Origin: Aquisphaera giovannonii | GTDB taxonomy: Bacteria; Planctomycetota; Planctomycetia; Isosphaerales; Isosphaeraceae | Direction of reading: 5' to 3' | Length of the DNA stretch: 64,000 bases | NCBI RefSeq assembly: GCF_008087625.1 | Contig: NZ_CP042997.1 | Location: 4,898,001 to 4,962,000, forward strand | In this document: positions 6,835 to 35,009 of the stretch, piece by piece | How the letters are laid out: the number at the start of each line of letters is the position of its first letter | How positions within the stretch are numbered: position 1 is the first letter of the stretch | Program-made: the position numbers and the translations under genes | Notes under the pieces: generated by a model | Told to the model about the DNA's origin: nothing | Seen by the model: the letters and a program-made list of their open reading frames with translations, nothing else | Databases searched by the model: none

Positions 6835-8652
6835 ATGTCGTCTGTCTTGAATGGGCCACAGATGAAGGAGCTGAGCCAGGCTATTGAGGCTGCCTACACG
6901 ATGGCTGACCTGGCTCGTCTACTGAAATACGAGTTGGATATAGACTTGGAGCGTGAATTCGGCACTGGAAGTTTGACTTCGGTAGTCTTTAACATGATAA
7001 ACTGGTTTAATGCAAGGGGACACATCAATGATCTTTTACGTGTGATCACTAATGATCGTCCCGAGAATCACATGGTGCAGCAGGTAGTACACAGACTCTT
7101 GGATCGCCTGCCATCCCAAGGCTCTGGATCATCCGAATCAGTTGCGCGTGGATCGCAGGATACTGTTCCTCTGCAGAATCTACCCACCCGAGCCACTGAA
7201 ATAGTAGGTAGAGATGATGCGTTAAAGCAGATCTCCGCATGTTTTAACGAATCTCGGGCGCGAGGATTGCCCAGCGAGTACGTGGTTCATGGGCACGGCG
7301 GTCTCGGCAAAACATCGCTGGCTGTCGAATACGCACTCCTGCACGCAGGGAAATACCCCGGAGGAGTATTTTTCTTGCGATGCTCAATGCAACTAGATAA
7401 CGCGATATCGGAACTCGACTTCTACAAGACACAGCGCCAAAATAACTTAGACAATAACTCTCCCACAGTATTATTTAAGAAGCATCTTTTAGACTCCACT
7501 AAACCTGTCCTTCTTATACTGGACGACGTTCAGACCTTACAAGAATGGACCAATATTCACGGCTCGGGATTTGCATCTATAAAAGGCGTCGATGTTTTAA
7601 TAACCACCAAGCTCTCGCGTCTGCCTGTATCCCAAGTGTATCCTCTGTGCCCACTAACTACAGAGGACGGCATTTCGCTCCTCTCCAAATTTCGTGCGGA
7701 CGCAAATTCGAACAGCAATCACGAAGCATCCGCAGAGATTGCCCACCGGGTCGGCGGCATTCCATTTGCATTATCCATCATAGGCATCTACATGAGAAAG
7801 AACCCAGCATTACCCTGGCGCGAATACCAAAAGAGCTTAACGGAGCATGGCCTAGAGACGCTCCGCCAAACAGAAGAACTCGCGGGCACAATCCCTGGAA
7901 AATATGCAGTGCCCATCGACAAAATTATGAATGACTTGCTTCAGTCGCTCTCTGAAGCGGAAAGACGGGCAATCGAGTATACCGCGATACTATCGACCAT
8001 TAATCCGATGGAGTATATACTGATCGGCATTCTTAAACATGACAAAAGCCTTGCATTTAGACCAATTCCAGGCTACTCCGATCCTGCAACTTCTATAATC
8101 GATACCCTGGCAAGAGATGGGATACTGCTTTCCCAAGGAGAGCGAGGACTGCGACATCTAGGCTTGCACGAATTGCTCCGCCAGAAGGTTTTAGACGACC
8201 TACGCAGCAACCGCAAGAATCTAGATTCGTTGCACGCTGGCCTATTCCAGTACGCGTTCTACCTAATGGACTTTGAGCCCATTGCAACCTCGGAGGTCGA
8301 GGACAAAATTAAGACGATGAGGCTGCTAACTTCACACTCGTACTCCCTTGAAATTCTTCAGTTGCTCCACCGCGAGGGGCATATACACGACCTCGATTCG
8401 GTTATTGCGTTCCGCAATCAACATCTGGACTCCATAATATCGGCAAGAAAACTAGCGACTCGCCTTGGTGGTGAGACAGTGTTCAAATTGAGTTACAGGT
8501 TTCCGCTTCAAGTTCATCTTTCCATTCAGGTCTGCGTGAAAACTCAGGACATCACACGAGCCCAAGAGTTGATAGCACACCACAACGGCAGAATGACGGT
8601 TACCGAAGCAAAAGAAGGGACAATCTATATCATTTTCATCACTACTTCTTAA
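6835..8652 (+). CDS. STAND-type NTPase with N-terminal effector-associated (EAD1-like) domain
   Basis: 605 residues from ATG 6835 (an upstream TTG at 6823 is less likely). Residues ~8-85 match EAD1, a death-like adaptor fold: helices with LSQAIEAAYTMADLARLLKY, GSLTSVVFNMINWFNARGHI and a final DLLRVITNDRPEN. After a ~35-residue linker comes an NB-ARC-like P-loop module: Walker A GHGGLGKTSL at ~153, Walker B LLILDDV at ~227, a sensor LITTK, a GxP motif in VGGIPFALSI, then a winged-helix region to ~440. The C-terminal ~160 residues lack obvious TPR, WD or LRR repeats. The last ~60 (KLSYRFPLQVHLSIQ to EGTIYIIF) may be a small alpha/beta domain. The line at 7381 has only 28 G+C of 60, against about 50 of 60 in typical neighbours, so recent transfer is likely. 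Known EAD proteins act in bacterial conflict/immune signalling; the partner effector is not visible here. Confidence 0.8.
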   Translation: MSSVLNGPQMKELSQAIEAAYTMADLARLLKYELDIDLEREFGTGSLTSVVFNMINWFNARGHINDLLRVITNDRPENHMVQQVVHRLLDRLPSQGSGSSESVARGSQDTVPLQNLPTRATEIVGRDDALKQISACFNESRARGLPSEYVVHGHGGLGKTSLAVEYALLHAGKYPGGVFFLRCSMQLDNAISELDFYKTQRQNNLDNNSPTVLFKKHLLDSTKPVLLILDDVQTLQEWTNIHGSGFASIKGVDVLITTKLSRLPVSQVYPLCPLTTEDGISLLSKFRADANSNSNHEASAEIAHRVGGIPFALSIIGIYMRKNPALPWREYQKSLTEHGLETLRQTEELAGTIPGKYAVPIDKIMNDLLQSLSEAERRAIEYTAILSTINPMEYILIGILKHDKSLAFRPIPGYSDPATSIIDTLARDGILLSQGERGLRHLGLHELLRQKVLDDLRSNRKNLDSLHAGLFQYAFYLMDFEPIATSEVEDKIKTMRLLTSHSYSLEILQLLHREGHIHDLDSVIAFRNQHLDSIISARKLATRLGGETVFKLSYRFPLQVHLSIQVCVKTQDITRAQELIAHHNGRMTVTEAKEGTIYIIFITTS

Positions 8653-31931: not shown

Positions 31932-32059
31932 GCGGCGGCGGGCGGGCGCCGGCCATCAAGCGGCCGGCGCCCTATCACGGCCCCGGCGGGCCATGGTCGC
32001 CGGGCGCTCCGTCCCCCCGACTTCTGCCCTGTCATGACCCCAGGCGAGTCCGCGCACCG

Positions 32060-32110
32060 CTGGTCCCCTCCCCCCTGGTGGGGGAGGGTTAGGGAGAGGG
32101 GGCGACCGCC
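32060..32110 (+). repeat. Left 51-bp inverted repeat flanking the DUF559 gene
   Basis: Begins CTGGTCCCCTCCCCCCTGGT and ends GGGGGCGACCGCC. It matches the reverse complement of 32640-32690 at all 51 positions. It contains an internal hairpin, CCCTCCCCC/GGGGGAGGG. Together the two arms delimit a unit of 631 bases. Confidence 0.9.
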
Positions 32111-32143
32111 TCGGCCAAGCGGATCCAACCTCGATCGTAGCCC

Positions 32144-32512
32144 TCACCGGCCCCCGCGAAGCCCCGATGCAGGGGGCCGCAACTCCCGCTCGATGGCCTC
32201 CAGGACAGCCTCCGTCTCCGTCAGCACGACATTGTTCCAGAACCGGATCACCCGGTATCCCTCTCCTTCGAGCCATCGCGTCCGCTCGAGGTCGTATTCC
32301 AGTCGCTCGGCATGCTGACCCCCGTCCAGCTCGATGATGAGCCGCGACCGGTGCGAGACGAAATCGACGACATAGATACCCATGGGCTCCTGCCGGCGGA
32401 ACTTCTCGCGGGCGAAGCGACGGGCGCGGATGTGCCTCCACAAGCGACGTTCCGCATCGGTCATCTCGCGGCGGAGCTGACGGGCGAAGTCGCGAGGGAT
32501 CTTCGAGCTCAC
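32144..32512 (-). CDS. DUF559 (VSR-like endonuclease fold) protein
   Basis: 122 residues from GTG 32512; an ATG at 32464 gives a shorter form that drops the first helix. Family markers: EMTDAERRLWRHIRARRF (the 'T.AE..LW..LR' opening), FRRQEPMGIYVVDFVSHRSR, LIIELDGGQHAER (the D..E.DG.QH active-site strand of the very-short-patch-repair fold) and GYRVIRFWNNVVLTETEAVL. The catalytic D and E/Q residues are intact. DUF559 proteins are widespread and without firm function. Both sides carry a perfect 51-bp inverted repeat, so the gene may be part of a mobile unit. Confidence 0.85.
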   Translation of the reverse strand: MSSKIPRDFARQLRREMTDAERRLWRHIRARRFAREKFRRQEPMGIYVVDFVSHRSRLIIELDGGQHAERLEYDLERTRWLEGEGYRVIRFWNNVVLTETEAVLEAIERELRPPASGLRGGR

Positions 32513-32639
32513 CCCAGGTGCCCCACCAATCGGAGGACTTCCCGGGCCCCAGCGACGGAGCCCCTTCAGGCCTGATAGGACGAGATGGCATCGGAAGCAA
32601 GGAGATTCCGTTCCGGACGAGGGGATCTCACGCAGCCGG

Positions 32640-32690
32640 GGCGGTCGCCCCCTCTCCCTAACCCTCCCCCACCAGGGGGGAGGGGACCAG
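32640..32690 (-). repeat. Right 51-bp inverted repeat flanking the DUF559 gene
   Basis: Starts GGCGGTCGCCCCCTCTCCCT and ends GGGGAGGGGACCAG, a perfect reverse complement of 32060-32110. The bases inside both arms differ (TCGGCC against CCGGCT), so the repeat ends sharply. 32691-32902 holds no other feature. Confidence 0.9.
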
Positions 32691-32902
32691 AAAAGCACGG
32701 CCTCGTGTGTGGGGACTGACAGGCCGGGAGAAGCCGGTCGGTAGCCCCCAGGGGCACGCCCCATCGCCGGGCTCAGATGGCTCCCCAAGAGGCGAACCCG
32801 CTCCCGGTCACCCGGCGTTGCCCCGCGACGCGGAGCCGTGTAATCTCGGTCCGTTCCGACACCCTCACGACGGCATCGCGTCGGCCGAAAGACGCGTCGA
32901 AA

Positions 32903-33199
32903 TTGGGCATCCGGATCGAGGTGGAGGAGGGCGAGCCGATCGCGGCGGCCCTCAAGAGGTTCCGTCAGCAGCTCCGAGCCGAAGGCGACCATCCGCTTCA
33001 TCGCCACAAGTGGCACAAGCCGAACCCTCGCTTCTACACGAAGCCGAGCGTCCTCAACCGCCGTCGCCGGTGGATCATCCGCGCCAAGAAGCGCAGCCCC
33101 TGCGGGATGAGCCCGGACCCGGACTACGACTGGGTCGACGACATGGAAATGCGGCCGCGACGGTCCTGGGGCCGCGTGGGCCGGCACGTCATCACCTGA
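32903..33199 (+). CDS. rpsU: Ribosomal protein bS21-like
   Basis: 98 residues from TTG 32903 (LGIRIEVEEGEPIAAALKRF). The frame is open upstream to 32777 but reads as non-protein there. IEVEEGEPIAAALKRFRQQL is the bS21 N-terminal helix pattern, followed by the very basic HRHKWHKPNPRF, VLNRRRRWIIRAKKR region that binds 16S rRNA near the anti-Shine-Dalgarno site. bS21 is usually ~60-70 residues; the extra ~30 C-terminal residues (DYDWVDDMEMRPRRSW) are unusual. No other ribosomal gene is nearby, so it may be a second copy. Confidence 0.7.
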   Translation: MGIRIEVEEGEPIAAALKRFRQQLRAEGDHPLHRHKWHKPNPRFYTKPSVLNRRRRWIIRAKKRSPCGMSPDPDYDWVDDMEMRPRRSWGRVGRHVIT

Positions 33200-34884: not shown

Positions 34885-35009
34885 CCCCTCTCCCGCTCGG
34901 CGGGAGAGGGCCAGGGTGAGGGTCTTCCAGCCGAAGCCTCGCGGCCCCTCGTCATCCGAGGCCCGCTCCGCCCTCACCCCACCCCTCTCCCGCTCGGCGG
35001 GAGAGGGAG
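34885..35009. repeat. REPIN-like pair of inverted hairpins
   Basis: Two copies of CTCTCCCGCTCGGCGGGAGAG, at about 34887-34908 and 34985-35006. Their outer flanks are in inverted order (..GGGCCAGGGTGAGGG / CCCTCACCCCACCCC..), separated by ~75 bases. The same arrangement recurs at 42391-42561. The rest of 34777-35086 shows nothing else. Confidence 0.7.

Follow-up and report, generated by a model that had tools for sequence, protein, structure and literature searches.

Several described systems come close to the locus reported here. REPIN-RAYT elements combine short palindromic repeats, found mostly as inverted doublets with some decayed single copies, and a partner gene, usually single-copy and encoding a Y1 (HUH) transposase, that lies between copies of these repeats; the type of partner varies with the type of repeat (PMC3116915, available text). 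A second family is the E. coli intrastrand triplex motif TM_ECO, earlier named BoxC or PIT. As described in the available text of PMC4666352, these repeats have been known since the 1990s with neither a partner gene nor an explanation of how they spread, triplex formation by the E. coli motif has been reported in vitro without in vivo support, and the repeats are genetically unstable between strains. The same text reports a lack of mobility genes in the vicinity of the repeats, gives no partner gene, and does not mention DUF, ycjD or endonuclease. IS elements and MITEs also place a gene between inverted repeats and have short gene-free derivatives.

On the nuclease side, EDxHD homing endonucleases such as I-Bth0305I (PMC3943268, available text) carry a catalytic domain that is homologous to DUF559 by sequence profile and fold comparison, and in the available part of a 2022 paper a DUF559 gene is already assigned to the EDxHD family. 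The Vsr mismatch endonuclease has its fold in common with DUF559 and belongs to a different family. We know of no link between Vsr and repeats, and to our knowledge DUF559 itself is a widely found, uncharacterised family.

The locus described below differs from each of these systems. Its arms share with BoxC/PIT/TM_ECO the exact consensus form, the inverted pairs, the wide occurrence and the instability between strains, whereas the motif as described in the available text of PMC4666352 has no partner gene and the partner here is DUF559. Compared with REPIN-RAYT (PMC3116915, available text), the Y1 transposase is replaced by an EDxHD/Vsr-type nuclease, and the repeat is built from a C block and two G blocks that together can fold into a purine-motif triplex. 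Unlike the I-Bth0305I type, as far as the available text of PMC3943268 describes it, DUF559 is little more than a catalytic domain without a tethered DNA-binding region, and the gene is framed by repeats with no intron or intein. In contrast to IS elements and MITEs, the unit has no transposase and no convincing target duplication. The best reading appears to be a REPIN-RAYT-like system built on an unrelated nuclease. No statement of a link between DUF559 and the triplex repeat was found in the literature searched, with subscription journals mostly outside its scope; the parts and the layout are known separately, and the pairing appears to be new.

The 631-bp unit and its repeat family in Aquisphaera giovannonii

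The unit occupies positions 32060-32690 of the window, the whole 64-kb stretch of A. giovannonii DNA that was analysed. As the initial annotation had described, its left arm (32060-32110, plus strand) and right arm (32640-32690, minus strand) form an inverted pair with 51 of 51 positions identical, and a single gene lies between them. This gene, at 32144-32512 on the minus strand with an inferred GTG start, encodes a DUF559 protein (YcjD/COG2852 family) of 122 aa with a predicted EDxHD/Vsr-type nuclease fold. A clean divergence outside the arms, also claimed, was not borne out: a 78-nt imperfect inverted repeat (32038-32115, plus strand, 87% complementary to 32635-32712, minus strand) runs beyond both arms, and farther away a block of weak similarity appears again on either side. 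A short ORF adjoins the unit (32777-33199) and gives a weak ribosomal protein S21 match (E 4.5e-6) just under the Pfam cut-off.

Each arm is ordered as a C/T block, its complement R1, TTA and a second G block R2. In the left arm these are the C block at 32066-32074, a loop at 32075-32079, R1 at 32080-32088, TTA at 32089-32091 and R2 at 32092-32100; the right arm holds the same structure inverted (C block 32676-32684, R1 32662-32670, R2 32650-32658). The arms had been credited with a strong hairpin, of which the 9-bp stem is real but the folding energy is unremarkable for its composition (z -0.40 as RNA, 53 nt; z -1.07 as DNA, 51 nt; z -2.13 for the 27-nt DNA core). The special feature of the arm is the G block that follows the hairpin as a third block. 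Both arms match the published form CCCTCNCCC / loop / GGGNGAGGG / loop / GGGNGAGGG exactly, the left one at 32066-32100, and no other match was found in the window with a second loop of 2-4 nt. This consensus is that of the TM_ECO motif (PMC4666352, available text).

Allowing up to 3 mismatches, the window contains two copies of the core GGGGAGGGTTAGGGAGAGGGGG, with 0.01 expected. In the 10.5-Mb genome the core motif was found in 92 copies (47 forward, 45 reverse), and the reversed control pattern in 1 and 1. These counts rule out chance or a local feature as the origin of the pair. The copies form 36 convergent pairs, with their G strands facing inward, and 20 single copies; outward-facing arm pairs within 200 bp were absent from the genome. 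In 35 of the 36 pairs the arms are 106-118 bp apart, and the remaining pair, at 567 bp, is the DUF559 unit. It is the one inverted pair among 36 that holds a gene, which disposes of the proposal that any gene between arms would do and settles in the annotation's favour its own check of whether the arms also flank unrelated genes. Besides its single full-length DUF559 gene, the genome has one longer relative with a weak match. The parallel with RAYT and its REPs drawn in the annotation is apt, in that inverted doublets prevail and a single full-length partner gene lies inside its own repeats; RAYTs show the same layout with other repeats. The annotation's reading of the locus as a small mobile or gene-conversion unit is supported in part.

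Among 19 distinct readable short pairs, arm-to-arm identity was 28-43 of 51 positions, against which the identical arms of the DUF559 unit are unusual for this genome. The extension CGACCGCC was present at exactly one inner end in 16 of these 19 pairs and at both in none, while the DUF559 unit has it at both ends. Together with the 51/51 identity, this indicates that the arms of the unit were probably made alike, by gene conversion or recent assembly, and that insertion of a gene into a short pair would not by itself account for the unit.

A second inverted pair of the same architecture, of the CCCTCTCCC / GGGAGAGGG / GGGTGAGGG class, was identified by eye at 34886-35007 (no strand assigned). 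It lies downstream of an MFS transporter gene, holds no gene, and does not match the strict triplex pattern, its loop being too long. Relatives occur elsewhere in the genome at 73-84%. Since this pair belongs to another stem class, the genome holds at least two triplex-type repeat families.

In a second genome of the same genus, the DUF559 unit matches at 75%, and only over window positions 32086-32692. Other parts of the contig carrying it match other places of the A. giovannonii genome, and the neighbours of the unit in the window are found on different contigs. The flanking aldehyde dehydrogenase gene and the transporter gene are separated in this way, and the intergenic sequence could not be aligned. 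No clean empty site of the unit was found in this genome or in E. coli. On these alignments the pattern would fit relocation or separate acquisition of the arm-bounded unit.

The window protein matched PF04480 at 142.7 bits over residues 35-139 of the scanned frame. Its Pfam matches, DUF559 and a weaker MTES_1575 REase, are nuclease families only, and 54 of 102 aligned residues are identical to E. coli YcjD. A profile search identified the I-Bth0305I catalytic domain (3r3p, E 3.7e-5). The structure model of the window DUF559 (mean pLDDT 85) returned NGO0050 (3hrl) as the top match in a fold search, followed by 3r3p (E 3.4e-4) and Vsr (1cw0, E 0.025; 1vsr, E 0.028). Among 147 DUF559 domains, 12 contained a stop or unreadable codon, which counts against a REPIN-RAYT-like reading. 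In all 135 intact domains R14, E21, W25, F38, R40, Q41, D50, E61, G64 and H67 are invariant, and D63 and D74 are conserved in 134; the conserved E, D and H residues are likely the catalytic ones.

DUF559 genes and triplex repeats in other genomes

That DUF559 genes elsewhere should have such arms was an expectation of the initial annotation, and in many phyla they do. Loci were taken from named genomes of many phyla as the best 80 of 565 confirmed matches, and the sample therefore leans to close relatives. Within these best 80 of 565, the arm motif lay within 600 bp of DUF559 at 58 loci and on both sides at 34, with a density of 1.26 per kb near the gene compared to 0.061 per kb more than 1 kb away. 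A motif-free test was also applied, in which the sequences before and after the gene were compared as mutual inverted repeats and a score >20 was taken as a pass. Bracketing was detected by this test at 53 of the 77 usable loci (L124, which scored only via a run of N, was dropped, and L069 and L129 have short flanks) compared to 11 of 1941 equally sized control sites elsewhere in the same loci; the p value of 2e-74 is nominal because neighbouring sites and loci are related. A clear bracketing repeat was absent from the other 24 of these 77 loci from the best 80 of 565, which counts against a REPIN-RAYT-like reading.

Planctomycete units, taken as the 66 best-scoring full-length matches, were bracketed in 42 of 66 cases compared to 0 of 48 control sites once three tandem loci had been dropped; with them, 21 of 197 control sites passed, an effect of the five DUF559 genes that stand in tandem at one locus. 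The motif at up to 4 mismatches was absent within 600 bp of 34 of the 66 units, which also counts against that reading. Long multidomain proteins with a partial DUF559 match were bracketed in 0 of 15 cases. From a plasmid collection, six loci (Neisseria, Deinococcus, three Cyanobacteria and Azospirillum) were chosen out of 44 rows to span genera, along with two E. coli rows; by eye, all six showed a C block and two G blocks within ~200 bp, and 3 of 6 passed the inverted-repeat test.

Some individual loci were distinctive. In two cyanobacterial loci (L313, L315) almost pure blocks of the form CCCCC..GGGGG-CTA-GGGGG lie near DUF559, apparently a cyanobacterial version of the same architecture. 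In Legionella anisa (L117, ~7850-8520) DUF559 lies within a ~147-nt inverted repeat, far longer than the triplex motif, with a score of 128. At L228 (G195:C5:328900-340100), a tandem array spanning less than 11 kb comprises five nearly equal DUF559 genes that individually lack clear flanking inverted repeats; tandem units were also found in L226 and L229.

The third block of the repeat was compared with R1 at asymmetric stems of DUF559 loci, where R2 can be recognised as either a mirror or a direct copy of R1. A purine-motif triplex requires a mirror, with A opposite A or T, and the purine-motif pairing rule for T is named in the available text of PMC4666352. Among 182 stems, the mirror was the better description for 78 and the direct copy for 5, with 99 ties; the p value of this comparison is nominal because the stems overlap and the loci are related. 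Examples are CCTTCCCCC..GGGGGAAGG-TTA-GGATGGGGG in L088 and TCCTCCCCC..GGGGGAGGA-TTA-AGGTGGGGG in L079. As judged from these stems, the third block at DUF559 loci follows the mirror rule of the BoxC/PIT/TM family, with A read as A or T.

Arm type also varies with the gene. Arms were classed by stem and mapped on a FastTree of 147 DUF559 domains, with 300 shuffles within phyla. The upstream arm class (72 loci) required 18 changes on the tree compared to a mean of 24.9 in shuffles, and the downstream class (78 loci) 21 compared to 29.9; none of the 300 shuffles was as low in either case. This co-inheritance could be mere linkage. In four delta- and betaproteobacterial loci (L064, L083, L086, L103) the upstream arm is GGGGGAAGG and the downstream arm GGGGGAGGA, and the left and right ends are thus distinct and conserved.

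Co-occurrence was assessed with repeat excess defined as at least 10 motif copies over the control pattern (motif reversed) and full-length DUF559 as a best E <= 1e-17, a cut-off that admits a few fragments. Across 218 planctomycete genomes, including the window's own, an excess was present in 25 of 71 with full-length DUF559 compared to 15 of 147 without (stratified by family, odds ratio 5.1, p 3e-5). A gammaproteobacterial class sample around a Dyella genome, with the centre genome dropped, gave 24 of 53 compared to 12 of 176 (odds ratio 11 without family stratification, p 8e-10). Genomes with weak DUF559 matches only did not differ from those with none (4/48 vs 11/99 in planctomycetes; 3/23 vs 9/153 in the gammaproteobacterial sample). 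Two sets of genomes count against the REPIN-RAYT-like reading, namely the 15 planctomycete and 12 gammaproteobacterial-sample genomes with an excess and no full-length DUF559, and the 46 of 71 and 29 of 53 DUF559 genomes, respectively, without an excess of the exact motif. Genus g32 comprises four repeat-rich genomes without a DUF559 match, one with an intact gene and one with an internal stop, a pattern that the gene's loss following spread of the repeats could explain. In three genomes of genus g23 (G212, G096, G215) the reversed control pattern is far commoner than the motif, 37 vs 1 in G212; a further G-rich family of repeats whose blocks stand in the reverse order may be responsible.

E. 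coli ycjD and alleles of repeat pairs

E. coli YcjD belongs to the same DUF559 family, as an NCBIfam equivalog. In K-12, ycjD lies at 1,351,407-1,351,760, and triplex repeat no. 9 of the published set (1,351,204-1,351,239; PMC4666352, available text) is ~170 bp downstream. A full-quality triplex repeat is present on the downstream side only, which counts against a REPIN-RAYT-like reading. The ycjD stretch (>=80% of the query) is present in 3364 of 5426 E. coli genomes, and other lineages have the eefRABCD operon in its place (PMC12817139, available text). Two further spread-row loci were covered through their annotation.

Repeat pairs at other E. coli loci differ between strains. At fepB-entC, the 186 bp carrying the pair are missing from 19 of 40 spread rows and present in 20, the remaining row being a small record that does not include the locus; the filled and empty states are clean, with at most a 3-bp TAA repeat. 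At hrpB-mrcB an allele ~100 bp shorter was found in 10 of 30 spread rows and a smaller change in one, and lldD-trmL has several shorter alleles; the alleles of these two loci differ at their junctions. No convincing target duplication was found at the fepB-entC, hrpB-mrcB or lldD-trmL pairs, and the filled and empty alleles could be deletions. One alx-sstT allele resembles slippage between CCCTCTCCC blocks that left one hairpin. A longer alternative alx-sstT allele in E. coli C2 (L298) carries unrelated inserted sequence at the repeat site.

Explanations of the association

The 631-bp unit may be the gene-bearing form of a dispersed repeat family, with a usually solitary DUF559 gene (PD-(D/E)XK fold) between two inverted BoxC/PIT copies, and the gene-less short pairs would stand to it as REPINs stand to RAYT genes, as non-autonomous relatives. 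When an arm becomes single-stranded in replication or repair, the C block and R1 would form a hairpin and R2 would complete a purine-motif triplex. DUF559 would recognise either this fold or the duplex sequence of the arm and cut at or near it, and repair copying from another repeat would then spread, restore or homogenise the pairs, by homing or gene conversion rather than classical transposition. From the association we infer binding, cleavage and copying, and DUF559 rather than another enzyme as the driver of spread. Action of DUF559 on the arm, whether folded as a single strand or present as duplex, with cut-and-copy repair then spreading, restoring and evening out the repeats, is considered reasonably probable. 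Its frequent position between two copies of the repeat makes DUF559 a strong candidate for the enzyme by which triplex repeats are spread or maintained.

A broader proposal is put forward more tentatively, at somewhat under even chances. DUF559 and triplex repeats may together be one cross-phylum class of selfish or domesticated elements, a second, independent invention of the REPIN-RAYT kind in which an EDxHD/Vsr-type nuclease would recognise an intrastrand triplex and spread it by cut-and-copy, with K-12 ycjD/BoxC as a living or fading example. The link would offer a second route, unrelated to Y1 transposases, for filling bacterial genomes with small palindromic repeats. Linking DUF559 to BoxC/PIT gives both a testable function, that of a nuclease acting on triplex-capable DNA, and the link can be tested in E. 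coli K-12.

The main rival is that DUF559 homed into repeat pairs made otherwise. The repeats would then be fragile, unstable DNA that owes its spread to a different agent or to slippage during replication, and DUF559 a homing endonuclease gene that invaded the pairs as its target without moving them. The homology to I-Bth0305I, the replacement of the usual spacer of a short pair by DUF559, the instability at triplex repeats described in the available text of PMC4666352 and the repeat-rich genomes without DUF559 are all consistent with such an invasion. Against it, two samples show repeats to be more abundant where DUF559 is present, arm type within phyla goes along with the DUF559 tree, and the arms of the unit both carry CGACCGCC inside, a state seen in none of the short pairs, 16 of 19 of which have it at one end. 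Invasion of this kind is accordingly rated as unlikely.

Somewhat less likely still is that DUF559 is a cellular repair or defence nuclease, similar to Vsr, whose units spread horizontally by recombination between ubiquitous repeats, the protein being inactive in the process. The predicted fold is Vsr-like, the Caulobacter DUF559-containing protein VsrA acts on DNA (PMC12907096, available text), homologous arms could act as recombination sites, and ycjD occupies the place of eefRABCD in other E. coli lineages. The long multidomain relatives of DUF559 are unbracketed, however, and units lie at non-orthologous places within a genus. A defence annotation was rejected, as there was no PADLOC match.

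Reading the arms as ordinary bidirectional terminators or regulatory hairpins that stand by chance at both DUF559 ends is very improbable. The C-rich hairpins do lie near the ends of the DUF559 gene, but a terminator has no use for a third G block or a mirror rule, no T tract follows the arm hairpin, and control sites lack such bracketing; a simple terminator was rejected on these grounds. In addition, earlier work saw no promoter or terminator activity of PIT elements, according to the available text of PMC4666352 (2015).

With DUF559 as the preferred partner of the repeat, the Y1 gene family was considered as a second candidate. In planctomycetes a Y1/RAYT-type gene also goes with the repeat, with odds ratios of 2.6 to 8.5 by cut-off (at E<=1e-10, repeat excess in 36/150 vs 4/68, odds ratio 5.1; at E<=1e-20, odds ratio 2.6). 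Genome-level association alone therefore does not single out DUF559, and Y1 loci from repeat-carrying genomes were for this reason compared directly. Where Y1 is strong, repeat excess with and without DUF559 was 16/45 vs 10/55 (p 0.07); where it is not strong, 9/26 vs 5/92. The DUF559 effect is thus weaker in the presence of a strong Y1, which counts against the preferred reading. REP/RAYT repeats carry a GTAG-type tag, and none is present in the window arm.

The direct comparison included 20 full-length Y1 genes (L317-L336) from planctomycete genomes carrying the repeat. As expected of RAYTs, 19 of 20 were bracketed by inverted repeats of their own, different in sequence and mostly of the TAGCC..GGGG kind, which indicates that the inverted-repeat test works. 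The DUF559 arm motif was within 600 bp of none of the 20, compared to 10 of 14 DUF559 units of the same genomes, of which 8 of 14 passed the inverted-repeat test. Mobilisation of the repeats in trans by a RAYT (Y1 transposase), with DUF559 as a passenger, would suit the commonness of Y1-type genes and their association with the repeat, but is scarcely credible given this 0/20 vs 10/14 difference, on which RAYT was rejected as the mover, the separate Y1 repeats, the persistence of the DUF559 association where Y1 is not strong and the untagged arms. Judged from their flanking sequences, DUF559 and RAYT each keep their own repeats.
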